NCBI GenBank assembly: GCA_039182125.1
Contig: JBCDCH010000013.1
Coordinates: forward strand, 1 to 64,000
Direction of reading: 5' to 3'
Source: Planctomycetota bacterium
GTDB lineage: Bacteria; Planctomycetota; Phycisphaerae; Tepidisphaerales; Tepidisphaeraceae
DNA length: 64,000 nt
The notes beneath the pieces are model-generated. The model was not told the DNA's origin, made no database searches, and saw only the letters and a list, made by a program, of their open reading frames with translations. The translations under genes and the position numbers were made by a program. Below, piece after piece: positions 35,134 through 63,692 of the stretch; positions within the stretch are counted from its first letter, which is position 1; every line of letters begins with the position of its first letter.

Positions 35134-38100
35134 ATGCCCACCTCCACACGCAATGCCCTCCGCCGTTCCGCCGCCGCCGTTGTCGAGAATTTGGAAACGA
35201 GGAAACTGCTGGCGGTGACCGCCGGTTTCGATCAAGGCGTACTCACGGTCAACACGACCGACGCCGACGAAACCGTCACGGTTACCTCGAGCCCCAGCAA
35301 CGGCGAGCTGTTCGTTTTCGTTGGCGACTTCAGTTTCCGCTCGGGGCCGGTCGCCGATCTGCAGCGGATCGAGTTGAACCTTGGCGGCGGTGTCGATCGC
35401 GTGGGGCTTGGGTCGCTCGTGTCCAGCGGCTACGACCTGGTCATCGACGCCGGGCCGGGCGATGACAACATCAATCTCAAGGACCTGCGTGGCCACGACG
35501 CCGCAACTGTCCGCGGCGGCGCGGGCGATGACTTTCTCCAAACCAGCTCCGACGGTAACGACGAACTCTTCGGCGACGCAGGCAACGACGCCCTCGTTTC
35601 ATTCAACAACGGACCCAAGGACATCCTCCGCGGCGGCGAGGGCGACGACAGTCTCAACGGCCTGGGTAACCACGAAGCGTTCGGCGATGGTGGTGTCGAC
35701 ACGTTCTCTGACAACTCCGACACGCGCGCCGAGGGCGAGTACCTCACTACCCTTCGTGGCGGCGACGGTGACGACATCATTGGCCGGCCCTTCGCGTACA
35801 CCATCCGACGCACCGTCCTCGCCTTCGGCGATGCCGGCGACGACACCATCGGCCTGTTCTACGGAACGCCCACCGTCTTCGGCGGCGAAGGCGACGACAA
35901 CATCATCATCGGCCGGGGTCAAGCCCACGGTGAGGATGGGGACGATTCACTGACCAACAACACAGGCTTCAGCGGTGGCACGGTCGAGTTCTTTGGCGGC
36001 CTCGGCAACGACAACCTGCAAATCGTCGCCGGCAGCAGCCTCGGCGACGGCGGCGCGGGCGACGACACCGTCTCCGCAGGCGACTCACCCGACACCGGCG
36101 ACAACGAACGCATGACGCTCTTGGGCGGAGCGGGTGATGACAGGGTCAGCGCCGGGCTCGGCCGCGGCGAAGACCGCCAAGTTACGCTTCGCGGTGGCGA
36201 AGGCGACGACACCCTCAGCGGTACCGGCGCGACCGTCCTCGACGGCGAAGCCGGCAACGACTCGCTTCTGGGCGGCACCGCCCCCAGCGAGTACATCGGC
36301 GGCAGCGGCGTCGACATCCTCGATTTCACGCAACTCGACCCCGCCGTCGACATCACCGTCACCCGCGACGGCATCGCCGACGACGGGCCGACCGGCACCA
36401 ACGCCAATGTCAACGCCGACATCGAGGCGGTCTTCGGTGCCGACACCAAGGACGCCGACGCCGAGGGCGCACCGCAACTGATCGCCTTCGAGTATTTCGA
36501 CGAGCCGCAGTTCTCCTCCGAGGGCCAGCTGAGCAACGGCACGCCGTGGACGCTGGAGAACAGCGGGGCGGGCACGCCGTACTTCACCGTCGGCGGCACC
36601 CGACTCTTCGCCACCGACACCGACGAGCAGGTCTCGACCTTCCGCACCGAGTCCTTCGACATCAGCGGCGGGCCGGTCACCATCAACTGGGACATGGGCC
36701 GACGTGCGATCGAGGGCGAGTTCGTCTCCTTCGGCTACCGCCTCGACGGCGGCGAGTTCGTCGAGTACCGACGCTTCGACGAGCCCGGCGACGTCGGGCT
36801 GAAAGTCCAATCGCCCGCCCTCACCGGCCAAACGCTCGCGCTGGAGATCCGCCTGCTGGTCCGCGACATCCCATCGGAATTTACGACCGTGTCGTTCCGA
36901 AACCTTCAGGTGATCCAGCAGCTGCAGGGCAACCCGCCGAGCGACGGCACGCCGCTCTTCTCCGAACCCTTCGACGAGCCCAACGGCTCGACCAACGGCA
37001 CGCTCGACCCGGCCGGCGCGTGGCGCGTCTTCGCGCCCAACGGCGGCATCGCCGTGCAGAACGGCCAGCTCCGCATCGCCGACACCGTCGACTTCACCTC
37101 CTGGTTCACCACGCCCCTGGACATCGCCGGCGCGGGCCCGGTGAGCATCTCGGCCGACCTGACCGGCACCGACATCGGCCCCGACGACCTGGCCCGCTTC
37201 ACCTACAGTGTCGATGGCGGACCGCTCCAGCAGTTCGGCTTCACCCGCGGCACCGACGGCAGCCTCACCGCCACCGCCGGAGGCATCATCGGCGACACGC
37301 TCAAGCTCGAGTTCCAGTTCCGCACCGCCGGCGGCAGCCCCGCGGTCTACACCCTCGACAACGTCGCGGTCACCACGGAGGGCACGGCGGAAGAAGTCAC
37401 CGTCGAGCGGGACGGCGACACCGTTTTCATCACGGGCACCTCCGGTGACGACGTGATCACCGTCCAGCGGATTGCTGATGGCACCAACGACGTACGCATT
37501 GTCGCCAATGGTGTGGATCGTGGCCGGTTCGATGCGAGCAATGTGCTGGCCAATCTCGGCGACGGCGACGACGACTTCCGCGAGGTGAGCGGTCTGCCCA
37601 CGGGCATTCCGGTCACCGTCAATGGTGGTACGGGCAACGACACGATCGTCGGCGGTGCGTCGTCGAACAACGAGATCAACGGTGGCCTCGGCGATGACAG
37701 CCTCCGCACCGGACTCGGCGGCGGAATCGTTCGCGGCGGCGACGGCAACGACATCATCAGCGGCTCCAACGAAGCCTCGGCTCAGCTCTTCGGCGGCGGC
37801 GGGAACGATGACATCACCATCTTCAGTGGCACCGTCGACGCGGGCACCGGTGACGACACGATCACCAAAGCGGGCGCATCGTTCGGTACTGGCCCGGTGA
37901 CCATCGACGCCGGTGCCGGCAACGATACCGTGATCATTCGCACCCCCAACGGGCCTGCGCTGGTCCGGGGCGGTGATGGCAACGACCGGTTCGACACGAG
38001 CCAGTTCGACGGAGTCGCCTCCGGCTTCACGCTTCTGGGTGAGGCGGGCAACGACACGCTCGTCTCGGGCGTCTCGGCCGACGACTTCACCGGCGGTGCT

Positions 38101-41100
38101 GGCACCGACACCGTCGACTACACCCAACGCACCGATGGGCCGTTCAATGTCACCTTCGACAACGTGGCCAACGACGGGGCCGAAGGCGAGGGCGACAACA
38201 TCCGCGATGATGTCGAAGTTGCTTTGGGCGTCGAGGACGACGGGCCGAGCCAAACGCTCTTTGCCGAGCCGTTCGATGAGCCCAACGGGGCCAACAGCGG
38301 CACGCTCACGCCCACGGGCACATGGCGCACCTTCCTGGGTGCCGGCAACGCGCCCGACCTGCAGCAGCGCCTGCGCGTCGCCGACGGCAAGCTGCTCGCG
38401 ACCAACACCGAAGGCTTCGTCAGCTGGTTCACCTCCGACCTCGACATCGCCGGCCAGGGGCCCGTCGACGTCAGCCTCGACCTGGTCGGGACCAACCTCG
38501 GTGCCGACGATCTGGCCCGTTTCATCTACCGGCTTGACGGTGGTGCGACCCAGCAGTTCGCGTTCGTCCGCGCCACCGACGGCAGCCTGACCGCAACCGC
38601 CGAAGGCCTCACCGGCGACACGCTCAAGATCGAGGTCCAGTTCCAGGCCCTCCAAGGTCAGTTCACCCTCGACAACTTTGCCGTGACTGCGCAAGGTACC
38701 GGCACTAATGAAGTGAGCATCACCATCGACGACCGCGTCCTGCGCGTCACCGGCACCGAAGGCGACGACGAAGTCCTCGTCAATCGCTTCGCCAACGGCA
38801 GGGATTACGACGTGTCGGTCGGCGGGGAGTTCGTGCAGTCCTTCGACCCGGACAGCTTCGACGCCATCGAAGTTCTCGGCCTCGGCGGCAACGATACCCT
38901 CGAAGTTCAGGCCGGATTCAACGACGATATCGGCGGCTTCGACGACGATGCGAAGAATGTCTTCATCGATGGCGGTCTCGGGAATGACGACGTCACCGGG
39001 TTCGGCCTGGACGGCGAAGTCCGCGGTGGCGCGGGCGATGACACGGTCCGCAGCCGGACCACCGTGATCGCCTACGGCGATGCGGGCGACGACCGCCTCT
39101 CGCCCGCAACCGGCTTCCCGTTCGGCTTCACTGGCTACGGCGGCGCGGGCAACGACACTCTCAGAGGGAGCGACTCCGAAAGCGCATTTCGGCTCTTCGG
39201 AGAAGAGGGCGATGACTTCATCAGCGCTACCGGCGGCTTCATCATCGCCGACGGCGGAGAGGGCGATGATATAATCAACCTCAGCACCACTGCCGCGTTC
39301 GGCAGAGCCTCCGCCAACGTGTCCGGCGGCGCGGGCGCTGACACGATCATCTTCTTCGAGATCGGCAACTCGTTCGACCGGCCCGAGGTCACCGTCGACG
39401 CCGGGCCCGACGACGACGTGGTCGACCTCTCCGGCCAGAACAGAGGAACCGTCAACGTCGATCTCGGTGATGGCAACGATCGCGTGATCACAGGCAACGA
39501 AGTCTTCGGCACTCAAGGCCCGCAGACCGCGGACATCACCATCAACGGCGGCGCCGGCAATGACACGCTCGTCAGCGGCAAGGTCACCGAGACCTTCAAC
39601 GGCGGCAGTGGCAACGACACTGTCGACTACACCGCACGCACAGGCGAAGACATCACCGTCAGCTTCGACGGCCAGTCCAACGACGGCAGTGCCGACATCT
39701 TCCCCCAAACCGATACATTCGACGTTCCGGAAAACGACAACATTGGCACCGACGTCGAAAATGTGCTCGGCGCGACCGTCGTCGGTCAGCCGTCGGTGCC
39801 GCTCTACGAAGAGCCGTTCGACGAAGCCGACGGCTCCACAACCGGCAACCTCACCCCGGTCGGTACATGGCGGACCTTCCAGCCCGATGGCGGCATTGCG
39901 GTGCAGGACGGTGTGCTGGTCATCGAGGACACGACCGGGTTCGTCAGTTGGTTTACCAACGACCTCGACATCTCCGGCGCTGGGCCGGTGGGCATCAGCA
40001 TCGACCTTACCGGCACCGGCCTCGGCCCGGACGATCTCGCCAACTTCCTCTACCGCGTCGACGGCGGGTCCAACCAGCAGTTCGCCTTCACCCGCGGCAC
40101 CAGCGGCAGTCTCACCGCAACCGCGACCGGCATCATCGGCTCGACGCTGAAGCTTGAGGTCCAGTTCAAAGCGGTTGTCGGCACCTACACGCTCGACAAT
40201 GTCGCTGTCACAGCTGGGCAAACCTCATCCGACGAGGTCAACATCGAAATCGTCGATCGACAGTTGCAGATCACCGGCACCTCCGGCGACGACGATGTCT
40301 TTGTCGATCGTCGCTCCAACACCGACGGCACGATCTACTTGGTGCTCATCGACAATGTGGTCGTGACGGAAATCGCCGCGGGCGACTTCGACACCATCTT
40401 CATAGATGGTGGCGCGGGCAGCGACCGGCTGGGTGCGATCGCCACCTCCGGCGGCGAGTTTGATGCCGAGTCCAAGCCCGCGACGATCATCGGTAGCGAC
40501 GGCGATGACCGCCTGTTCGCGCGAACGCCCGACGCATCACTTCTCGGCAATGCGGGCAACGACTCGATCACCATCGACCGCGGCATCGCTGACGGCGGCA
40601 CCGGCAACGACACGTTCGTCGTCGGCTCCGGCAGCAGCACGCTCATCGGCGGTGACGGCGACGACGAGTTCAGCACCGTTGCACCCGGCTCCGACCCTGA
40701 GCCCGACGCCACGCGTGTCGTCCAAGGCGGATCTGGCAACGACACACTGTTCTCTGGACGCGGCGCGGACGACTTCTCCGGCGGATCCGGCACAGACACC
40801 GTCAACTACAGCCGTCGAGTCGACAGTGACGGCCCGTTCTTCGTCACGCTCGACAACCTGGCCAACGACGGGGGTCCCGGCGAGGGCGACAACATCCGCG
40901 ACGATGTCGAGCAAATCCTCAATGCGGGCTTCGACGACGGCAGCGGTGCCAACACACTCTACCTCGAAGACTTCACCGAACCCACCGGTAGCACCACCGG
41001 GCAAATCGTGTCTCCGAGCGGTCTGAATCCCGCGGCATGGCAGACCTTCCGTGGCGGGCTGGGTGCCGGCACCTTTGAGGTCCGCGACGGGGCGCTGCTC

Positions 41101-42546
41101 GTAGAGAATACCGACGGCGTCGTCTCCTGGTTCACCAACGACATTGAGATCAACGGGACAGTCGACATCACCCTGACCGTCACTGCCGAGAACCTTGCAG
41201 CCAGCGACTACGCTCGCTTCACCTATACGCCGGATTTCAACCAACCGCAGGTCCAGTTCGGCATCGTGCGTGGTGAGAACGGCACGTTCCAGATTACCGC
41301 CGAGGACGTCGATGTTCGAAGGCTCAAGCTCGAGTGGCAGTTCCGCGCCGAGCAGGGCTCGTTCCGCATCGACAACCTGCGCATCACGCAGCCCAACGGT
41401 CCGGAACAAGTCACCGCCGAGGTCGTCGACGGTGTTCTGCAAATCGATGGCACTCAGTCCGGCGAGTTGATCCGGTTGCGTGCGATCGAACTGGACGGCG
41501 GTGGCGTCGGCGTGCAAATCCTCAACGGTCCCACGGCCGGCACTTACGAAACACGCGACGTGCTGGTCAACCTGCTCGGCGGTCCGGACAACTTCGACAT
41601 GTTCGAGCCGGTCGGTGACATCGGCGAAGGCCTGAACGTGACTGTTAACGCCGGGCTTGGCGACGACCGTGTGATCTTCCGCAGCGGCGTCGGCGTGATC
41701 AACGGCGGCGAGGGCGACGACTTCCTCGTGGTTCGCGACGACGCCAGCGCCACCACCAACGGTGGTGACGGTGCCGACCGCATTCGCGGCGCCGATCGCG
41801 CAACGCTTCTGGCCCGCGGCGGCGAGGGCAACGACACGCTCGAAACCGCCGAGCTCGATCTCGACGCCCCGCGTGCCACCTTGTTTGGCGACGCCGGCGA
41901 TGACCTGTTCCAGAACGGCCCCAGCGCTCAGGACATTTCAGGCGGCGATGGGCAAGACACGGTCCGATTCACCGAGATCTCCAGCGGCCCGGATCGTCCC
42001 GACGGCCCGATCACCGTGAGCTTCGACGGGCAGGCTAACGACGGCGCTCCCAGCGAGAACGACAACATCGCCGACGACGTCGAGATCATCGAGGGTGCCA
42101 CCATCGTCGACGATCCCGCCACGTCGCTCTACGCCGAGTCGTTCGACGAAGCCAACAGCGCAACCACCGGCACCTTCGACACCGCCACCTGGAACACCTT
42201 CCGCGGCGCACCCAACTTTAGCGTGCAGGACGACGTGTTCCGTGCGACCGATACCGACGGCTTCCGCACGTGGTACACCAACCGCTTTGACATCTCGGGC
42301 GGCCCGGTGGATCTGTCGCTGGACTTGGCGAGCATTGGTGAACTCGATGACGGTGATCGCCTCAATGTCCTGGTTCGCGTAGACGGTGGCTCGGCCCAGA
42401 TCATCGCCACCTTCCGCGGAAGTGTGCCTGATGATTTCGTCGCCACGCTCACCGGTATCACTGGCAGTACGCTGCAGGTCGAGGTTCAGGCCAACGTCAG
42501 TGGCGGTGCCTACACGTGGGACAACTTCCGCGTGAGCCGGGCGTAG
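35134..42546 (+). CDS. Giant modular surface protein: RTX-like repeats and six beta-sandwich modules
   Basis: A 2470-residue Asp/Gly-rich protein. The N-terminus carries ENLETRKLL, the LExRxLL element found at the start of many planctomycete extracellular proteins. A first block of RTX-like calcium-binding nonapeptides (GGxGDDxx) fills about 40-440. Six related beta-sandwich modules of about 140 residues follow, starting near residues 449, 607, 1041, 1555, 1941 and 2331 (pattern FDEPNGSTxGxLxP ... SWFT-xxLDIxGxGPV ... LDNVAVT). Between modules 2-3, 3-4, 4-5 and 5-6 are further RTX blocks of 235-355 residues, each opening with a short ITGTSGDD-type sequence and ending with the same linker DNxANDGxxGEGDN. 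The chain ends in module 6. It probably forms a calcium-stabilised surface fibre or adhesin, exported by a system that cannot be seen here; no secretion genes are adjacent. Confidence 0.88.
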   Translation: MPTSTRNALRRSAAAVVENLETRKLLAVTAGFDQGVLTVNTTDADETVTVTSSPSNGELFVFVGDFSFRSGPVADLQRIELNLGGGVDRVGLGSLVSSGYDLVIDAGPGDDNINLKDLRGHDAATVRGGAGDDFLQTSSDGNDELFGDAGNDALVSFNNGPKDILRGGEGDDSLNGLGNHEAFGDGGVDTFSDNSDTRAEGEYLTTLRGGDGDDIIGRPFAYTIRRTVLAFGDAGDDTIGLFYGTPTVFGGEGDDNIIIGRGQAHGEDGDDSLTNNTGFSGGTVEFFGGLGNDNLQIVAGSSLGDGGAGDDTVSAGDSPDTGDNERMTLLGGAGDDRVSAGLGRGEDRQVTLRGGEGDDTLSGTGATVLDGEAGNDSLLGGTAPSEYIGGSGVDILDFTQLDPAVDITVTRDGIADDGPTGTNANVNADIEAVFGADTKDADAEGAPQLIAFEYFDEPQFSSEGQLSNGTPWTLENSGAGTPYFTVGGTRLFATDTDEQVSTFRTESFDISGGPVTINWDMGRRAIEGEFVSFGYRLDGGEFVEYRRFDEPGDVGLKVQSPALTGQTLALEIRLLVRDIPSEFTTVSFRNLQVIQQLQGNPPSDGTPLFSEPFDEPNGSTNGTLDPAGAWRVFAPNGGIAVQNGQLRIADTVDFTSWFTTPLDIAGAGPVSISADLTGTDIGPDDLARFTYSVDGGPLQQFGFTRGTDGSLTATAGGIIGDTLKLEFQFRTAGGSPAVYTLDNVAVTTEGTAEEVTVERDGDTVFITGTSGDDVITVQRIADGTNDVRIVANGVDRGRFDASNVLANLGDGDDDFREVSGLPTGIPVTVNGGTGNDTIVGGASSNNEINGGLGDDSLRTGLGGGIVRGGDGNDIISGSNEASAQLFGGGGNDDITIFSGTVDAGTGDDTITKAGASFGTGPVTIDAGAGNDTVIIRTPNGPALVRGGDGNDRFDTSQFDGVASGFTLLGEAGNDTLVSGVSADDFTGGAGTDTVDYTQRTDGPFNVTFDNVANDGAEGEGDNIRDDVEVALGVEDDGPSQTLFAEPFDEPNGANSGTLTPTGTWRTFLGAGNAPDLQQRLRVADGKLLATNTEGFVSWFTSDLDIAGQGPVDVSLDLVGTNLGADDLARFIYRLDGGATQQFAFVRATDGSLTATAEGLTGDTLKIEVQFQALQGQFTLDNFAVTAQGTGTNEVSITIDDRVLRVTGTEGDDEVLVNRFANGRDYDVSVGGEFVQSFDPDSFDAIEVLGLGGNDTLEVQAGFNDDIGGFDDDAKNVFIDGGLGNDDVTGFGLDGEVRGGAGDDTVRSRTTVIAYGDAGDDRLSPATGFPFGFTGYGGAGNDTLRGSDSESAFRLFGEEGDDFISATGGFIIADGGEGDDIINLSTTAAFGRASANVSGGAGADTIIFFEIGNSFDRPEVTVDAGPDDDVVDLSGQNRGTVNVDLGDGNDRVITGNEVFGTQGPQTADITINGGAGNDTLVSGKVTETFNGGSGNDTVDYTARTGEDITVSFDGQSNDGSADIFPQTDTFDVPENDNIGTDVENVLGATVVGQPSVPLYEEPFDEADGSTTGNLTPVGTWRTFQPDGGIAVQDGVLVIEDTTGFVSWFTNDLDISGAGPVGISIDLTGTGLGPDDLANFLYRVDGGSNQQFAFTRGTSGSLTATATGIIGSTLKLEVQFKAVVGTYTLDNVAVTAGQTSSDEVNIEIVDRQLQITGTSGDDDVFVDRRSNTDGTIYLVLIDNVVVTEIAAGDFDTIFIDGGAGSDRLGAIATSGGEFDAESKPATIIGSDGDDRLFARTPDASLLGNAGNDSITIDRGIADGGTGNDTFVVGSGSSTLIGGDGDDEFSTVAPGSDPEPDATRVVQGGSGNDTLFSGRGADDFSGGSGTDTVNYSRRVDSDGPFFVTLDNLANDGGPGEGDNIRDDVEQILNAGFDDGSGANTLYLEDFTEPTGSTTGQIVSPSGLNPAAWQTFRGGLGAGTFEVRDGALLVENTDGVVSWFTNDIEINGTVDITLTVTAENLAASDYARFTYTPDFNQPQVQFGIVRGENGTFQITAEDVDVRRLKLEWQFRAEQGSFRIDNLRITQPNGPEQVTAEVVDGVLQIDGTQSGELIRLRAIELDGGGVGVQILNGPTAGTYETRDVLVNLLGGPDNFDMFEPVGDIGEGLNVTVNAGLGDDRVIFRSGVGVINGGEGDDFLVVRDDASATTNGGDGADRIRGADRATLLARGGEGNDTLETAELDLDAPRATLFGDAGDDLFQNGPSAQDISGGDGQDTVRFTEISSGPDRPDGPITVSFDGQANDGAPSENDNIADDVEIIEGATIVDDPATSLYAESFDEANSATTGTFDTATWNTFRGAPNFSVQDDVFRATDTDGFRTWYTNRFDISGGPVDLSLDLASIGELDDGDRLNVLVRVDGGSAQIIATFRGSVPDDFVATLTGITGSTLQVEVQANVSGGAYTWDNFRVSRA

Positions 42547-45140: not shown

Positions 45141-45485
45141 CGACCGTCAAAGGCCCCGACTCGGCCGACTTTTCCAAAGAGCGATGAATTTCACCCGCGA
45201 ACCTCGCGTTCTCCTCCCGCCGATAACCGCCCCAAACAAATCGGCCGCAGAACCCTCACAGGTCCAACGGCCGAACAGTCAAGAAAAGGATGGGCGATAC
45301 AGGGCTCGAACCTGTGACCTCTTGCGTGTCATGCATCGTGCGCTAACGCGTGCCGCACGAACAAACGCCGATTCTCGCCCGCTGCGAAGTCGGAAACGCG
45401 CACGTCCTACGCGAGTACACCGAACCCGAGACGCGCAAACGCGCCAGTCGTCGTCCCCGTTGTCGTCCCCGGTAGGTGGTGCTTC
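45141..45485. other. Gap between host kinase gene and first phage gene
   Basis: These 345 bases hold the promoter region of the histidine kinase, a tRNA 3' fragment (45291-45335) and about 150 bases of phage DNA with no convincing gene. The CGGCCG pairs near 45242 and 45268 can form a weak hairpin. I see no integrase or repressor here. Confidence 0.7.
45291..45335 (-). tRNA. 3' fragment of tRNA-Val(GAC), putative prophage attachment core
   Basis: Read on the minus strand: the anticodon loop ATGACAC (anticodon GAC, preceded by U33 and followed by A37), the 3' anticodon stem GCAAG, variable loop AGGTC, a perfect T arm ACAGG-TTCGAGC-CCTGT, acceptor strand ATCGCCC and discriminator A. CCA is not encoded. 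The 5' half (acceptor GGGCGAT, D arm and most of the 5' anticodon stem) is missing: upstream sequence matches only the last three bases of the anticodon stem (TGC). This is the picture left when a phage integrates into a tRNA 3' end, with the intact tRNA rebuilt at the other prophage end. Confidence 0.8.
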
Positions 45486-46771: not shown

Positions 46772-47787
46772 TGGCACTGTCCCAAGCCCGCACCAACCGT
46801 AAAATCCTGCGCCTGTCCAGACTGCTCAAACTGCCGCGCGCTCACGCGATCGGCCACCTCGAACTTCTGTGGATGAGCGCCCACGATGCGCTACGCGACG
46901 ACGTCGGCGACGCGATCGACGTCGAGGCCGCCGCCGAGTGGGAGGGCGAGGAGGGCGAGTTCGCCGCGGCGATGATCGAGGTCGGCCTGCTCGACGAGCA
47001 CGACGACACGCTGTACGTCCACGACTACTACGAGCACCTGCCGGAGATGCACCTCAAGCGCCTGCTCCGCAAGGTCGCGGGTGCCGAGTGGCTGCCGGCG
47101 AAACCGTCTACGAAACACGTCAAAGACCATTTTTGCTGCATGGCAGCCGAGCGGCAGCCGGACAGCAGCCGAAAGTCTGCCCACCAGACCAGACCAGACC
47201 CCACCTCACCAATTTCCCCCACTGGCCCCCAGGGGCCCGAGCCGCCGGGTGAAGTCGAGCCGACCGACGAGCCGGACATCGCCACGCCCGAGCAGGCCGC
47301 AGCAGCGCGCAGCGCCGCCTCCGACCGCCGCGATGCCGAGCCGCCGCCCGACAGCGTGCCCGCCGCGATCGAGGCGTTCGACCGCTGGAGCCGCGAGCCA
47401 ACGCCGCGGGGCAGGGGCAAGCCGCTCGACACCGCCGCCAACGAGCACCGCGAGATCGTCCGGCTTTGCGAAACCCTCGCACACCGACCACCGATCCCAC
47501 ACGGCGACGCCCAGGTCCGCCCCGACCGCCTGATCCCGCAGGCCGTGGATCGGCTCATCGCCCGGGGCAAGTCCGACGGCAAACCGCCGTTCCGCCGCCC
47601 GAACTTTGCGGTCGGCTGCGTGCGGAACGAGCTCGACGACTGGAACAACGGCATTGACCTCCAGCCCCGCGCCGGGCCGGGGAGCTACGCCGACGACCGC
47701 AGGCAACGCGCCAACGCCACCAACGAAACCGTCAAGCAACGCCTCAAAGCCAAACGGGAGCAGACCCATGACCGACGAGCAAGCTGA
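46771..47787 (+). CDS. Replication-initiation-like phage protein
   Basis: A 338-residue protein. The first about 100 residues (KILRLSRLLKLPRAHAIGHLELLW, then EEGEFAAAMIEVGLLDE) resemble the winged-helix N-terminus of phage replisome organisers. A long Pro/Glu-rich linker (about 130-215) leads to a conserved-looking C-terminal segment around KPPFRRPNFAVGCVRNELDDW. It would bind the phage origin and recruit the host helicase. ATG 46771 follows AAAGGA. The end overlaps the next gene by 20 bases, as expected for a partner such as a helicase loader. Confidence 0.6.
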   Translation: MALSQARTNRKILRLSRLLKLPRAHAIGHLELLWMSAHDALRDDVGDAIDVEAAAEWEGEEGEFAAAMIEVGLLDEHDDTLYVHDYYEHLPEMHLKRLLRKVAGAEWLPAKPSTKHVKDHFCCMAAERQPDSSRKSAHQTRPDPTSPISPTGPQGPEPPGEVEPTDEPDIATPEQAAAARSAASDRRDAEPPPDSVPAAIEAFDRWSREPTPRGRGKPLDTAANEHREIVRLCETLAHRPPIPHGDAQVRPDRLIPQAVDRLIARGKSDGKPPFRRPNFAVGCVRNELDDWNNGIDLQPRAGPGSYADDRRQRANATNETVKQRLKAKREQTHDRRAS

Positions 47788-48394
47788 CCAACTGGTCGAC
47801 AGACTCAACGACGCCGACAAGGGCCTCTGGCCCGGCAAGTTCAACGAGGCCGAGTTGGAGCAGTGGGTGACGGCACTCCGCCGCTACCGCTGGGACCGCG
47901 TCGAGCAGGAGCTGTTCGCGGCCTACCGGGGCGACGGCAACCACCGCGCCGGGTACAAGCCGTCGCTCGGTGCCGTGGTCGCTGTGGTGCGCGATGCCGT
48001 GGATGAGTCCGCCGACGACTCACGCGAGCATGAGCAAGCGGCCGACTTCCCCGAACTGCTCCGCCGCCGCCATCCCAACCTACGCGGCAAGTCCAACGTC
48101 GAGGTGGTGATGATCTACCACGCCGCGCAGGTCCGGTCGGTGGTGTGGCCGATCCGCAAGCAGGCTTCGCAACGCGGCCCCGATCGCGACCGTGCTCGCC
48201 AGGACCACGCGATCGCCGAAGAAAAGCTCACCGCTCTGGTCCGTTCCTGCCAACGCGACCTACGCGCCTACGCCGGCATGTCCGATGAGCAAGCGCTCAA
48301 CGCCGCCGCGTGGATCGACGCCAACGACAGCGACTTCGAGGACGCCCTGCGCGACCTTCGCAACGCCGACGTGTTCGACGCCGCCGCCGCATAG
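47768..48394 (+). CDS. Phage protein, possible helicase-loader-like partner
   Basis: A 208-residue soluble helical protein. The N-terminal part (LWPGKFNEAELEQWVTALRRYRW, then EQELFAAYRGDGNHRAGYKPSLGAV) recalls the small N-terminal domain of replicative helicase loaders/inhibitors, but no Walker motif is present, so ATP use is unlikely. It directly follows the replication-like gene with a 20-base overlap. It ends in TAG, showing that amber codons do stop translation in this element. Confidence 0.45.
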   Translation: MTDEQADQLVDRLNDADKGLWPGKFNEAELEQWVTALRRYRWDRVEQELFAAYRGDGNHRAGYKPSLGAVVAVVRDAVDESADDSREHEQAADFPELLRRRHPNLRGKSNVEVVMIYHAAQVRSVVWPIRKQASQRGPDRDRARQDHAIAEEKLTALVRSCQRDLRAYAGMSDEQALNAAAWIDANDSDFEDALRDLRNADVFDAAAA

Positions 48395-48432
48395 GACCAA
48401 CACACCCAGCAACCCCGCACGGACGCAGTACC

Positions 48433-48900
48433 ATGAGCGAAGTGAATCGCCGGGCACCCCAACTCAAACCAGCTGGCTACGGCGGGGGCTCGATGCCCCT
48501 CGACGAGGACTGGATTGAGTTTTCGGAGTGGGCCAACAAACGCGATCAGCAGGCTGCCGATACCAAGGTCGCCGACGAACCGCTCGACGCCGCCGCCGAG
48601 CGTGCCGTGAAGCGTCTTCTCCGCCTGGTCGAGAAGCTACTGACCGGCGACGATCCGATCGCCACGCAGCTCGCCGCCGCCGGCTGGTACAACTTGCGCG
48701 AGCACCCCGAGGCCCGGAAATGGTGGGCCAAGCTCGACATGCAGTGCCGGCTCATGTTCATCCGCGAGGGCTGGGCCGCCGACTGCGGCGGGAGCATCGC
48801 CGAGGCCGTCCCGCTGAAAATCTGGAAAAAGTTCAACGCCAAAATCCGCGTTTCTGGCGTGGATTCAGCGATCATGGGCGAAACGCTCCGATATTCTTGA
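48433..48900 (+). CDS. Phage protein of unknown function
   Basis: A 155-residue soluble protein, charged in the first half (residues 30-75), with a compact C-terminal part rich in aromatic residues (GWYNLREHPEARKWWAKLDMQC). ATG 48433 begins the coherent coding part; the frame upstream is antisense-like shadow of the previous gene. No motif recognised. Confidence 0.5.
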   Translation: MSEVNRRAPQLKPAGYGGGSMPLDEDWIEFSEWANKRDQQAADTKVADEPLDAAAERAVKRLLRLVEKLLTGDDPIATQLAAAGWYNLREHPEARKWWAKLDMQCRLMFIREGWAADCGGSIAEAVPLKIWKKFNAKIRVSGVDSAIMGETLRYS

Positions 48901-48921: not shown

Positions 48922-49143
48922 ATGGCGTTGTCCCTTGACCACCTCAAGACCATTCACCTGATCGCGGTCGAAGGTAAATCTGACGCCGAAGCCGCCGAGG
49001 TGTTGGACGTGTCCGAGCGGACCATCGAACGCCGCTGGAGTGAGGCCAAGGTCTACGCCCCGAAGCTCCGCCGACGTCGGCCACCGCCCAAGCCCCGCAC
49101 CGTCGCGTTGACTGACGGATTGCTCGCCACCACCGCCGCGTGA
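48922..49143 (+). CDS. Small helix-turn-helix phage protein
   Basis: A 73-residue protein with a clear sigma-region-4/LuxR-like helix-turn-helix (IHLIAVEGKSDAEAAEVLD, VSERTIERRWSEAK) and a basic Pro-rich tail. It probably controls the late genes that follow. Its stop overlaps the start of the membrane protein gene as GTGA. Confidence 0.7.
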   Translation: MALSLDHLKTIHLIAVEGKSDAEAAEVLDVSERTIERRWSEAKVYAPKLRRRRPPPKPRTVALTDGLLATTAA

Positions 49144-49451
49144 CCGCGTCCGCATCCCCAACTGAACCGGCCGTCGACTTCGGGAAGTTCGTGTCCCGCA
49201 AGTTCATCGTGAACGGTGGCGTCACCGCCGCGATCGCGTACCTCAACGACGTGTCGGTGACCAAGTGCTGGATCATCGCCCTGATCGTGTGCGTGTTCAC
49301 CATCGTCCAAGGCGCGATCGACTACGCCAAGGTCATCCGAGGCACCGTCCCCGCCGATGAGCACGCCGCCGCGGTTGCCCGCGCCGAACTGGCCGAGGCC
49401 ACCGTCGAGCGGAAGCGGGCCGAGAAGGCCAAGACCGAGGCGATGTACTAG
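49140..49451 (+). CDS. Membrane-anchored coiled-coil phage protein, interrupted by an in-frame amber codon
   Basis: A 103-residue product as read to TAG (49449-49451): one membrane helix (about 42-62, CWIIALIVCVFTIVQGAI) and a long charged coiled coil (about 75-103). The frame continues unbroken after the TAG for 41 codons to TGA at 49575-49577, still with coiled-coil and aromatic coding character. The final TGA overlaps the ATG of the next gene as ATGA, the arrangement used by almost every gene here. The intact product would be 145 residues. The topology (N-terminal anchor plus coiled coil, next to a lipoprotein gene) fits an inner-membrane spanin or similar lysis protein. Confidence 0.7.
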   Translation: MTASASPTEPAVDFGKFVSRKFIVNGGVTAAIAYLNDVSVTKCWIIALIVCVFTIVQGAIDYAKVIRGTVPADEHAAAVARAELAEATVERKRAEKAKTEAMY

Positions 49452-49577
49452 GGCGAGATCAATCAGCGTGACGCGAAGGTCGCCGCGCTGGAGGCCGAGT
49501 TGGCACCGCTTCGCCAGTGGCACCGCCAGAACGATCACCTCATGCCCGAGTTCGAACAGTGGAAACGAAGCCGATGA
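49449..49577 (+). other. In-frame continuation after amber codon of the membrane protein gene
   Basis: This stretch contains the TAG codon, then GEINQRDAKVAALEAELAPL and a further 21 residues before TGA. It keeps the heptad pattern of the upstream coiled coil and makes the correct 4-base overlap with the lipoprotein gene. It has no ribosome-binding site of its own. Either the amber is a recent nonsense mutation or sequencing error, or ribosomes read through it at some frequency. Confidence 0.75.
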
Positions 49578-49963
49578 ACCCGATCACCCACGCCCGCCGC
49601 GTTTTCGCCATTATCACCCTCGCCCTCATGGCCGCCACGTTCGCAACCGGCTGCGCCGCCAAGGCTCGCCAAGAGTCGAGCGACGCGAACCTCGCCGCCA
49701 ACCGCGGGTATCTGGCCGAGTACGTCGAGCGGGACACCCCGCATCGCCCGCAGGCCGAGGGCATCATCGCCCGCATCGACGCCGGCGAGGTGGAGGACGT
49801 CGACGCCGAGATCACCGTCTACGACCAATCCCGTCCGCTGATCGAGGACTACGCCCAGATCGCCGACGACGAGGGCCAGGTCGACGCGCTGTTCACGCCC
49901 CGCAGCGTCGGCATCCTCGAATGGCTCAACGCATGGGGCCGTGAACTGGATCGCTACCGATGA
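49574..49963 (+). CDS. Small lipoprotein, possible outer-membrane spanin-like subunit
   Basis: A 129-residue protein with a signal peptide (RRVFAIITLALMAATFA) and lipobox ATGC, so Cys27 would be lipidated. The mature part is acidic and helical. Its ATG overlaps the TGA of the interrupted membrane protein gene (ATGA), and its own stop overlaps the next start. A membrane-anchored coiled-coil protein followed by a lipoprotein is how spanin pairs are organised, but it lacks the proline-rich form usual for outer spanins, so this is only a suggestion. Confidence 0.6.
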   Translation: MNPITHARRVFAIITLALMAATFATGCAAKARQESSDANLAANRGYLAEYVERDTPHRPQAEGIIARIDAGEVEDVDAEITVYDQSRPLIEDYAQIADDEGQVDALFTPRSVGILEWLNAWGRELDRYR

Positions 49964-54875: not shown

Positions 54876-55063
54876 TGCCAGCTCAAGCACCCCAGCCCGC
54901 ACCGCCAAGTCCGAAGCCGCGGCCATCACCGCCGCCGCCTCCCAAGTACACAAACAATGGGCAGGCGAAAACGAATCCATCACCGGAAGACAGACACGTT
55001 TTCGGCCACTTCCGCATTCCGGACGATGCACGACTGACCATGCGGGACTTTCGTACCGACTGA
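54875..55063 (+). CDS. Short proline-rich phage protein
   Basis: A 62-residue protein, Pro/Lys-rich in the first half, ending in a short charged segment. It is linked to its neighbours on both sides by one-base TGATG overlaps, which is the main support that it is translated. No function assigned. Confidence 0.5.
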   Translation: MPAQAPQPAPPSPKPRPSPPPPPKYTNNGQAKTNPSPEDRHVFGHFRIPDDARLTMRDFRTD

Positions 55064-55449
55064 TGCCACGTCACGCTTGCCGCCATCCCGGATGCCCTCG
55101 CCTGCTCACCGAGCGTGGCTACTGCCCGAAGCACGCAGGCAAGGCCGAGCCCGAGCATCGCAAGCACGACGCCGCCCGAGACGCGGACCATGCACGTCGC
55201 AAGGCGATCTACAACAGCAAGCAGTGGCAGGTGGTGCGTGCCGAAGTACTCGAAGCCGAGCCGATCTGTCGCGAGTGCTCGCGTGAGTTCGCCACCGACG
55301 TCGACCACATCAAGCCGCTGGCCGCTGGCGGCGACCCGTTCGACCGGGACAACCTCCAGCCGCTATGCACGGCCTGTCACCGCCGAAAGACCGCACGGGA
55401 GCGTCGTGAGGGGCTGGCGGGCCATCGGAAGCCGACCCGCAGGGGGTAG
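55063..55449 (+). CDS. HNH endonuclease beside the terminase module
   Basis: A 128-residue HNH protein with zinc-binding cysteines: CRHPGCPRLL and CPKHAG at the start, CRECSREFATDVDHIKPLAAGG and DNLQPLCTACHRRKTARER. The HNH core is His of DHIKPL, Asn of DNLQPL and His of CHRRK. HNH proteins next to TerS/TerL are needed for cos-site cleavage in several HK97-like phages, so this is the likelier packaging partner of the two HNH genes. Ends in TAG. Confidence 0.88.
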   Translation: MPRHACRHPGCPRLLTERGYCPKHAGKAEPEHRKHDAARDADHARRKAIYNSKQWQVVRAEVLEAEPICRECSREFATDVDHIKPLAAGGDPFDRDNLQPLCTACHRRKTARERREGLAGHRKPTRRG

Positions 55450-55548
55450 GGGGTCGGCAACTTTTCAGCCGAGTCTTCCAGACCAAACCCGCCCTGTTTT
55501 TTTCTTCGTGATCTATTTCCGCCGTCTCAAAAATCGGCGCATCGACCC

Positions 55549-58257: not shown

Positions 58258-59510
58258 TGAGCATCATCAACGCACTCCGCGAGAAGTTCGCCACGGTGAT
58301 CTACCCGGTCAACCGCATCGGCGACCCGACGCAGTCGATGACGCCGATGAGCGAGGCGACGGCGATGGGGATCCCCGCGTTCTTCAGCGGCGTGAGCTTC
58401 CTCGCCCTCACGCTGGCCACGCTACCCGTGCATGTGCTGCGGAAAACTGACAACGGGCGAGAGAAGGCCAACGACCACGACCTCAAGGCGCTGCTCGGCA
58501 CGTCACCGAGCGAACTGAACACCGCTGCGCAGTTCTGGGAGACGTTGTTCGCACATGCGGTGTCGTGGGGCAACGGCTACGCCCTCGTCAAACGTGACCG
58601 ATCGGGCAAGCCGACGGAGCTGCTCAACGTCGCCCCGCATCTCGTGGTGCCGACCCGCGTGAACGGTCGCACCGTCTACGCGCTACGGGCCGAGAACGGC
58701 GGCGAGGCGATCCCGGTGCTCGCCCGCGACATGTTCCACCTGCCCGGACTCGGCTACGACGGGATGCAGGGATACAACCCGGTCCGCCTGCTCGCCGAGT
58801 CGTTGCAGCTCGGCCGGGCCGCCCAGAAGTTCGGCACGGCGTTCTTTGCCAATGGGGCGAGGCTCGGGGGTGTCATCGAGTCGGACAAGAGACTCACCGA
58901 CGAGCAGGCCGCCGACATCAAGCGTGTCGTCGAGCACGACTACAGCGGCCCCGAGAAAGCCGGCAAGTGGCTCGTGCTCCAGGGCGGGGCGAAGGCCAAG
59001 ACGTTGTCGGCACCCCCGGAAACCGCCCAGCTCATCGAGACGCTGAACATCAGCGAGCACCAAGTTTGCCAGATTCTCCGAGTGCCCCCGATCCACGTCT
59101 ACGACTTCGGCCGGGCGACGTGGGGCAATGCGGTGGAGATGGACCGGCACACCGTTCAGTACAGCTTGCGACCTTGGATCATCAAGGCCGAGCAGGAGTG
59201 CCGTCGGAAGTTGCTCACCGCCGTTGAGCGGGAGCAGGGCTACTACGTCCAGTTCAGCGTCGACGGCCTGCTTCGGGGTGACCCGAAGACGCGGATGGAA
59301 GTCAGCCGCCTGCGTCTCGGCGAGGGCCTCACCAACATCGACGAAGAACGCGAAATGGATGACCGACCGGTGTTGAACACGCCGTGGTCGAAAGCGTATC
59401 GCGTTCCGGCCAACAGCATGTCCGCGGAGAAGCTCGTGATGCCAGCACCCGCCGACTTCGACGGGACGCCGCCGACGCCGCCCGAACCCACGGAGACGCC
59501 CGATGCCTAG
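58257..59510 (+). CDS. Phage portal protein (HK97 family)
   Basis: A 417-residue protein forming the dodecameric channel at the head vertex. Typical segments: AFFSGVSFLALTLATLPVHV, SWGNGYALVKRD, FFANGARLGGVIESD, and SEHQVCQILRVPPIHVYDF. The C-terminal 30 residues are Pro/Thr-rich. Starts by one-base overlap with terL (TGATG) and overlaps the protease gene by eight bases. Confidence 0.95.
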   Translation: MSIINALREKFATVIYPVNRIGDPTQSMTPMSEATAMGIPAFFSGVSFLALTLATLPVHVLRKTDNGREKANDHDLKALLGTSPSELNTAAQFWETLFAHAVSWGNGYALVKRDRSGKPTELLNVAPHLVVPTRVNGRTVYALRAENGGEAIPVLARDMFHLPGLGYDGMQGYNPVRLLAESLQLGRAAQKFGTAFFANGARLGGVIESDKRLTDEQAADIKRVVEHDYSGPEKAGKWLVLQGGAKAKTLSAPPETAQLIETLNISEHQVCQILRVPPIHVYDFGRATWGNAVEMDRHTVQYSLRPWIIKAEQECRRKLLTAVEREQGYYVQFSVDGLLRGDPKTRMEVSRLRLGEGLTNIDEEREMDDRPVLNTPWSKAYRVPANSMSAEKLVMPAPADFDGTPPTPPEPTETPDA

Positions 59511-60033
59511 TCCCGGCAAGCTCACCGGCTACGCCTTGCTTTACAACGTTCTGTCGGCCGACCGTGGTGGTTACCGCGCTCGATTCGCCCCCGGTTCGAT
59601 TAAGTACCCCGAGGACGGTGACGTGCGGGCGCTCTACGGCCACAGCGAGCTTGCACTGCTCGGACGTGTCAGCAGCGGGACGCTCCAACTCCAGGACGAC
59701 GGGACCGGCATCAAGTTCGCGCTCGACCTGCCCGACACCACGGTCGGCCGCGACGTCGCGGAGTTGGTCCGCCGCAAAGACATCGTCGGGTGCAGCTTCG
59801 GCATCTGGAGCATCACCAAGTCGTCGTGGGTCGTCGAGGACGACATCGAGATTCAGGACTACGGCCAGTGCGTGATGGATGAGATCACGATCACCGGCAA
59901 CCCGAGCTTCCCGCAGTCATCGGTCCGACTGATCGAGCCGGACCAGCCCGACCCCGGTACGCCCAGCACCACGCCACGCCGGAACATGGCGGCGCTGGCG
60001 CTGGCCGACATCGAACTCCAGGCGGTCGCCTGA
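59503..60033 (+). CDS. HK97-type prohead protease
   Basis: A 176-residue serine protease of family U35. The catalytic His47 is in ALYGHSE, Ser98 is in VGCSFG, and the acidic partner is within DEITITGNPSF. It removes the capsid delta domain during maturation. Its start overlaps the portal stop, and the capsid gene follows after 29 bases. Confidence 0.92.
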   Translation: MPSPGKLTGYALLYNVLSADRGGYRARFAPGSIKYPEDGDVRALYGHSELALLGRVSSGTLQLQDDGTGIKFALDLPDTTVGRDVAELVRRKDIVGCSFGIWSITKSSWVVEDDIEIQDYGQCVMDEITITGNPSFPQSSVRLIEPDQPDPGTPSTTPRRNMAALALADIELQAVA

Positions 60034-60062
60034 ACATCGTTTCCCCATACCCCAGGTTCACC

Positions 60063-61424
60063 ATGACCCACAGCAACCCGTTTGTGCGTGCGGCCGCCCT
60101 TGCCGCCATTCTCTCCACCGGCCTTGCGGCCGACGTCCCCACCTACCACACGTTCGAGGACGCCGGCGATGCCAAGTCCGAGGGCGATGACGACTCCACC
60201 GACCCGCAGGACGGCGAGCGTGAGACGTTCGACGCCCTGAAAACCAAGGCCCAGGCCATCATCGACGGCGCGAAACAGGAGGACCGCGAACTTTCCGACG
60301 ATGAGAAGGAGAAGTTCGAGGGCATCACCAAGAAGCTCCGCCGTATGAAGGACGCGAACGACCGCGAGGCCGACCTTGCGAAACTCGACCTCCAGACGTT
60401 CGGCAACACCAACACGAAGAAGGCTCGCGATCTCGTGACCTCCGCACCAAAGCTCCCGGATGATCCGGGTGCCAAGGAGCCCGATGCCAAGGAGAAGTTC
60501 GAGCGGGACGTCGCAAAGTTCGAGACGTTTGTCCGGACCGGCGAACGCCCGGACAACTACGAGAGCTTCACCATCACCACCGGCGTCAACGGCGGGGTGC
60601 TCGTGCCGCGTCGCATCGGCTCGCCGATGGTCGTGAAGCGGACCGCCGACGCCTACCGCCAGGCGATCGCCGCCCGCGGCTTCTCCCCAATCCAGACCGA
60701 CTCCACCGCCGAGTGGAAAGAGCCGCTCATCGACGACACGGCCAACACTTCGGAGTTCCCCGAGGCCGAGAACGACCGGACCGAGAAGGAAGCGGAACCG
60801 GCCATCACCAGCATCACGCTCGGTGCTCCGCTCCACCGCAGCAAGGCGGTGTGGTTCAGCAACACGCAGCTCGCGACACAGACCAACCTCATGTCGTACA
60901 TCGAGCCGCAGCTCTACCGCCGCGTCGATCGGCAGCGTGAGGCGAACATGACGACCAAGATTCTGGCCAACGCCACGCAGGTCGTCACCGGGGCCGCCAC
61001 CGATGGCATCACCTACCTCGAAATCCTCCAGGTGAAGTACACGGTGCCGCGTGCCCACCGCGAGAGCGGCGTGTTCATCATCAGCGACCAGCTCGCCCTC
61101 GCCATTCAGGGCCTCACCGACAACCAGGGCCGCCCCCTGTACGTCGCGTCCATCAAGGACGGTGAACTGGACCGGTTGGCGGGCTGGCCGGTGTTCGTGG
61201 CCGACTCTCTGCCGGACCCGGCCGCCAACAACAAGACGCTCATCGCCGCCAGTGCAGAGGCGTTGCGTATCCGCGATGTCACGAGCGGTGCTGCCGCGCA
61301 ACGCATGGCACGCTACGCCGAACTGCCGGATCACCCCGATCAGGTCGGCATGGAGCTGTTCGAGAACGGCGACGAGAACTTCCACGACCCGTTCGTGGCC
61401 GTGTTCCAGCACGCCGCCGCGTAG
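60063..61424 (+). CDS. Major capsid protein (HK97 fold)
   Basis: A 453-residue protein. The first about 155 residues are a charged, coiled-coil delta/scaffold domain (FDALKTKAQAIIDGA to DVAKFETFVRTG) expected to be removed by the protease. The mature HK97 fold begins near YESFTITTGVNGGVLVPRRI and ends DNFHDPFVAVFQHAA-like. The extreme N-terminus is unusual in reading like a short hydrophobic Ala-rich leader (VRAAALAAILSTGLAA). Ends in TAG. A 71-base gap with GGAG near its end separates the next gene. Confidence 0.95.
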   Translation: MTHSNPFVRAAALAAILSTGLAADVPTYHTFEDAGDAKSEGDDDSTDPQDGERETFDALKTKAQAIIDGAKQEDRELSDDEKEKFEGITKKLRRMKDANDREADLAKLDLQTFGNTNTKKARDLVTSAPKLPDDPGAKEPDAKEKFERDVAKFETFVRTGERPDNYESFTITTGVNGGVLVPRRIGSPMVVKRTADAYRQAIAARGFSPIQTDSTAEWKEPLIDDTANTSEFPEAENDRTEKEAEPAITSITLGAPLHRSKAVWFSNTQLATQTNLMSYIEPQLYRRVDRQREANMTTKILANATQVVTGAATDGITYLEILQVKYTVPRAHRESGVFIISDQLALAIQGLTDNQGRPLYVASIKDGELDRLAGWPVFVADSLPDPAANNKTLIAASAEALRIRDVTSGAAAQRMARYAELPDHPDQVGMELFENGDENFHDPFVAVFQHAAA

Positions 61425-61495
61425 TCCTCAACCCACCCGCCGGCTTGACCGCTGGCGGGCGGTATGCACGCCGTAACCCCACCCCGGAGCCGCAA

Positions 61496-62830: not shown

Positions 62831-63279
62831 GCATGACCATCAACAACCTCGACCAGCTCTACGAGCTGCTTGGGCAGCTCGGAGAAAAGTCGGTCCGAAA
62901 GGCAGCAAGAGCGGGCGTGGCTGCGGGCTCAACGCCCATCTCCCGCGAAGCTCGAAGCCGAGCAAATCGCGAGTCCGGGGCACTGAAGCGGAGTATGGGT
63001 AAGCGAACCAAGAGCTACCGCAGCGGCGTCGTCGTCGCCACGGTTGGCCCGCGTCGTGGGGTGAGCTTTGAGTATCAGGGTGAGCGGCGGACTCCCGCCC
63101 ACTACGCCCACCTAGTCAACAACGGCCACCGCAACCGCGACGGATCGCACACTCCCGGATCGCACTTCATGGACGACGCCTTCGATGCAACGTCAGACGA
63201 GGCCGAGCGAGTCGCGGAGGCGAAAATCATTGAGAAGCTCACCAGCGAGGCCCAACGGCTCGGCCAGAAACTCCGATGA
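62827..63279 (+). CDS. HK97 gp10-like tail-connector protein
   Basis: A 150-residue protein matching the HK97 gp10 family: KAARAGVAAGSTPISREARSRAN, KSYRSGVVVATVGPRRG, and YAHLVNNGHRNRDGSHTPGSHFMDDAF. It takes part in tail-to-head attachment. The GTG start overlaps the adaptor stop; an ATG two codons later is also possible. Confidence 0.88.
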   Translation: MSMTINNLDQLYELLGQLGEKSVRKAARAGVAAGSTPISREARSRANRESGALKRSMGKRTKSYRSGVVVATVGPRRGVSFEYQGERRTPAHYAHLVNNGHRNRDGSHTPGSHFMDDAFDATSDEAERVAEAKIIEKLTSEAQRLGQKLR

Positions 63280-63692
63280 CGCCTGACGTCGACACCGCCG
63301 TACTGACTTGCATCCGGTTGTGCCCCGAAGTGCTGGCCGCGGTCGCCGATCGCGTCCGCCCCGTGGTGCTGGGGCAGGGAGACCGCCGACCCGCCATCAC
63401 TTACGAGCCGGTCGAGGACGACCACTTCGACGGCGTCGACGGCAGCACGAGCGAGTACACGCTCACCACCTACGACTTCGACATCTACGCCGATACGCAC
63501 ACGCAGGCTCGGTTCATCTCCGAGGCCCTGCGAAAGCATCTGCACAGCAGCGAGTTCGTTGCCGCCGGCATCGACTGCACATGGTTCTGCGACGGCACCC
63601 GCGTCGTCCGCGACAAACCTACCGACGGAGCGCCCGCTCCCGTCTATCACATTCGTCAGACCTACCGCCTGCTCTGGGCCGCGGTCGACTAA
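63276..63692 (+). CDS. Tail completion/terminator protein (DUF3168-like)
   Basis: A 138-residue protein of the gp17/DUF3168 type: LTCIRLCPEVLAAVADRVRPVV, then RPAITYEPVED, TLTTYDFDIYADTH and HIRQTYRLLWAAVD. It caps the tail tube after the tape measure sets its length. Starts with an ATGA overlap. Confidence 0.8.
   Translation: MTPDVDTAVLTCIRLCPEVLAAVADRVRPVVLGQGDRRPAITYEPVEDDHFDGVDGSTSEYTLTTYDFDIYADTHTQARFISEALRKHLHSSEFVAAGIDCTWFCDGTRVVRDKPTDGAPAPVYHIRQTYRLLWAAVD

Follow-up and report, generated by a model that had tools for sequence, protein, structure and literature searches.

An in-frame amber codon in a prophage membrane-protein gene, probably a recent nonsense mutation

A small membrane-protein gene in a planctomycete prophage is split by an in-frame TAG codon, behind which the reading frame still has the character of coding sequence. 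The most probable origin of this arrangement, to which we give a chance of roughly 0.6, is a recent single-base nonsense mutation in a gene of 145 codons, which would now yield a product of 103 residues. We infer three points, namely the recency of the change, the holin-like nature of the product and an effect of the truncation on its function. The finding is mostly one of curation: gene callers will annotate a protein of 103 residues and overlook the tail of 41 codons.

The interrupted reading frame

The frame opens at GTG 49140, meets TAG at 49449-49451 and, after 41 further sense codons, closes at TGA 49575-49577 (Table 1). This split had been described in an earlier, sequence-only reading of the window (the whole 64,000-nt stretch of DNA analysed here), and re-reading of the sequence showed it to be real. 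The GTG shares four bases (GTGA, 49140-49143) with the stop codon of the preceding HTH gene, an overlap that makes it a credible start, and the TGA that closes the tail overlaps ATG 49574 of the lipoprotein gene downstream. Inspection of the tail revealed neither a second stop nor a frameshift.

Table 1. The interrupted gene and its neighbours
Feature	Position	Strand	Characteristics
Small HTH protein gene upstream	48922..49143	+	Sigma70_ECF-like HTH region, E 2.7e-6
Truncated ORF, 103 aa	49140..49451	+	Short N-terminus, 2 predicted membrane helices, start of long helix, TAG
In-frame TAG, codon 104	49449..49451	+	Sequence
Very probable former 3' part of gene, 41 sense codons	49452..49577	+	Phage-like codon usage, same heptad register
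Predicted lipoprotein gene downstream, 129 aa	49574..49963	+	Signal ending ATGC, all-helical model

Coding character of the tail

The tail behind the TAG is very probably one-time coding sequence, because its codon usage and its heptad register both exceed chance. A codon model trained on neighbouring genes of the same element, with the interrupted gene itself left out, scores the tail at 0.317 bits per codon, which exceeds 98.4% of stretches read out of frame and ranks at the 28th percentile of 41-codon stretches that are genuinely in frame. The remaining forward frames of the tail score negatively, and a frameshift past the stop was rejected on that account. When past-stop extensions were scored for all 30 annotated genes, a long positive one that is otherwise unexplained appeared only in this gene, where coding-like sequence continues in frame past the stop, as expected of a nonsense-mutated gene. 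The other extensions merge in frame with the gene that follows, score negatively, or could not be counted because they are short or unassigned; the positive score past 63276-63692 was attributed to unannotated downstream sequence. The length of the open frame by itself is little evidence, since a run of 41 open codons arises in 31% of shuffles at this G+C content.

The coiled-coil pattern that the sequence-only reading had seen after the TAG also holds up. Within residues 105-127, all five strong hydrophobics (I, L, V, M or F) occupy a/d positions of a single heptad register, and that register also fits best before the stop (3/5 there); by shuffling, the match has a p value of 2e-4 when the register is fixed and 0.003 when any register is allowed. 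In an AlphaFold2 model of the read-through form, built from the single sequence and no alignment, one helix of 60 residues (72-131) spans the stop, and most of it has block pLDDT values of about 91-98.

Gene junctions in the element

The ATGA junction with the next gene had been taken as a sign of an intact downstream frame, on the grounds that almost all genes of the element use it. Counting gives a lower figure, with exact 4-base overlaps at 11 of 29 gene junctions and overlaps of other lengths at most of the remainder. The coincidence is also not diagnostic, and is weaker evidence than claimed, because three neighbours with genuine stops, 47768-48394 (TAG), 59503-60033 (TGA) and 60063-61424 (TAG), likewise end on the next start when read past their stops. 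Their frames run on for 7-13 codons to the xTGA start of the next gene (47768-48436, 59503-60066 and 60063-61448), and these runs may be due to chance or be what remains of overlaps since eroded. A systematic device, in which TAG would precede an in-frame stretch reaching the start of the next gene, was considered and rejected: three of four non-overlapping TAG genes have such a stretch, yet one of the four TGA genes without overlap has it too (exact test about 0.24).

Termination at TAG

General reassignment of TAG, already thought unlikely in the sequence-only reading, can be rejected here. One gene is affected, and TAG terminates four others (47768-48394, the HNH gene 55060-55449, portal and capsid), as had been noted from the sequence; reading through these four stops gives no positive coding score. 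Nor did the proposed search for an amber suppressor tRNA find a CUA anticodon, either among 53 genomic tRNA matches to a covariance model or among the 56 tRNAs called by ARAGORN in the stretches fetched. The window holds no tRNA, and the one on the phage's probable second contig has the anticodon CAU. The genome encodes a normal, full-length RF1 whose PxT motif is PET (407 bits, slightly under the 423-bit curated cut-off) and an RF2 with SPF.

Downstream RNA structure can stimulate readthrough and is not required at every readthrough site. The predicted folding of the RNA at 49430-49580 is no more stable than that of shuffled sequences (z +0.54, pseudoknot-free folding). Thus tRNA content, RF1, RNA structure and relatives lend no positive support to a recoding event that gives short (103) and long (145) forms.

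The prophage

The prophage starts near 45290. The 125 bases at 45291-45415 recur as an identical direct repeat at the end of contig C101 (G000:C101:11515-11639, L124), and about 55 of them match a tRNA-Val at the end of contig C96 (95%). The two copies probably represent attL and attR, flanking an element inserted at a tRNA gene, and C101 probably holds the right end of the prophage; its genes, by inspection, include tyrosine-integrase-like, S24-repressor-like and adenine-methylase-like ones, along with the tRNA with the CAU anticodon. The element looks otherwise intact and not visibly decaying: family matches were obtained for its terminase, major head protein, head closure and tape measure proteins, and it has an integrase-like gene and the identical probable att repeats.

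The HNH gene is separated from its downstream neighbour by a 99-bp gap (55450-55548) that contains runs of G and T; the gap is open in the frame of either flanking gene, is not coding-like and is possibly a cos region. Elsewhere in the window, 35134-42546 encodes a 2470-aa repeat-rich protein with repeated GGxGxD-type motifs and, in its N-terminus, LETRKLLA, a motif known from planctomycete surface proteins.

Nature of the protein

The interrupted gene's product has no significant family match. Membrane helices are predicted at residues 20-37 (low confidence) and 40-66 in the AlphaFold2 model, with positive residues before the first and after the second. By the positive-inside rule such positively charged flanks are cytoplasmic, and because they border the two predicted helices, they suggest that the N- and C-termini both lie in the cytoplasm. 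Two membrane helices with both ends cytoplasmic are the expectation for a class II holin, and the model has two, the ends being placed by charges. An Rz-type i-spanin would have a single N-terminal membrane helix with a periplasmic coiled coil, whereas the model gives two helices, the first at low confidence, and would have a significant spanin-family match; the Rz-like PHROG match is weak (phrog_13, E 0.048) and confined to the read-through form. The two predicted helices, the lack of a significant family match and the holin-like topology leave the earlier label of candidate spanin/lysis protein unsupported, and our guess is that a holin-like hairpin with a coiled-coil tail would fit better than an Rz-type spanin. 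The predicted lipoprotein downstream has a lipobox signal peptide, as an o-spanin would; by inspection it reads FATGC, which departs from the [LVI][ASTVI][GAS]C consensus at -3 as in some o-spanins.

Relatives

When the read-through form, and for some collections also the short form, was used as query, the genome itself gave no homologue and no second copy, and 150 relatives gave none. Across 397 genomes of the class there were only weak coiled-coil or chance matches, five of which were inspected and were not convincing homologues, and the viral contigs, genome contigs and phage records searched held none. Terminase, portal and capsid were used to seek related phages, and portal and terminase relatives were found at about 24-39% identity; the gene was not found near them. 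Neighbouring genes used as baits (49960, 51885 and the lipoprotein) retrieved nothing from viral contigs, the lipoprotein yielded no homologue, and Foldseek comparison of the target model with viral structures returned no significant match. A comparable place in the best syntenic relative is occupied by a compact 81-residue membrane protein that lacks a long coil (L030 10490-10735) and has no detectable sequence similarity to the target. With no homologue found, and hence one sequence only, the ancestral codon 104 is inferred, not observed.

Origin of the stop codon

If a nonsense mutation is the cause, the original gene would have comprised 145 codons (49140-49577), and a recent single-base substitution would have made codon 104 TAG, where host RF1 would terminate. 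The resulting protein would retain the two predicted membrane helices and roughly the N-terminal half of the long coiled-coil helix and lose the C-terminal 41 residues, while near-cognate tRNAs, through leaky readthrough, would supply only traces of the long form. A recently broken gene was among the suggestions of the sequence-only reading, and it is supported by the tail's codon usage and heptad register, by a helix predicted to run on across the stop and by the freedom from further lesions. Belinky et al. 2021 (PMC7918605) found that in-frame stops occur commonly in bacterial genes, that most of them last no longer than polymorphisms do, and that the mobilome category has more than its share of them.

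The main rival is a base-calling or consensus error in a real gene that is intact, with a sense codon at this position. Such an error in a draft would look identical to a mutation, and therefore only reads tell the two apart; the genome is a 131-contig draft, the surroundings of the stop read as an intact gene, and the assembly offers no second copy to corroborate the base. Deep assemblies, however, seldom contain substitution errors, and we regard this origin as unlikely. It is quite unlikely, too, that the 103-residue form is settled and functional, the tail being left over from an older loss of a dispensable C-terminal half-coil. Both predicted membrane helices do precede the stop, and the comparably placed protein of the syntenic relative is short and compact, but that protein shares no detectable similarity with the target, and the tail retains full coding statistics with no further lesions.

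Programmed amber readthrough, in which the second half of the coiled coil would be added at a set rate so that a single lysis-type gene yields two isoforms with no suppressor tRNA involved, would account for a tail that is in frame, coding-like and register-matched. The base after the TAG is G and not U, and U in that position has been linked to reduced readthrough (PMC5289835). Against this stand the missing CUA tRNA in genome and window, an RF1 with its PxT motif, the unremarkable folding of the RNA 3' of the stop and the lack of relatives that might show conservation of stop and extension, and we consider it highly improbable. If true, it would be a rare instance in phages of leaky termination producing two isoforms of a membrane protein; nothing in the evidence here points that way. 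A non-coding tail is scarcely credible: open runs of this length are frequent in shuffles and three other genes read through to the next start, but the codon (about 0.016) and heptad (0.0002-0.003) signals are unlikely to coincide by chance.

Comparison with known systems

In the two-component Rz/Rz1 spanins (PMC6139136), as here, a membrane protein with a coiled coil is followed by a lipoprotein gene; unlike them, the target has two predicted membrane helices and charges that suggest a cytoplasmic C-terminus. The class II phage holins share its small size and predicted two-helix membrane hairpin, but the target has an extra C-terminal coiled coil and no family match. TAG-recoded phages (code 15, crAss-like; PMC9523058, PMC10607447) likewise have in-frame TAG in phage genes, whereas here a single gene is involved, four genes terminate in TAG and no CUA tRNA is found. 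Although the target, with no orthologues found and hence no conservation or dN/dS measure, differs from the short-lived nonsense codons of PMC7918605, it shares with them a single in-frame stop, an intact downstream frame and a place in a mobile element. Whether nonsense mutation or base error, the lesion in this phage membrane-protein gene looks ordinary in kind, and not like new decoding.
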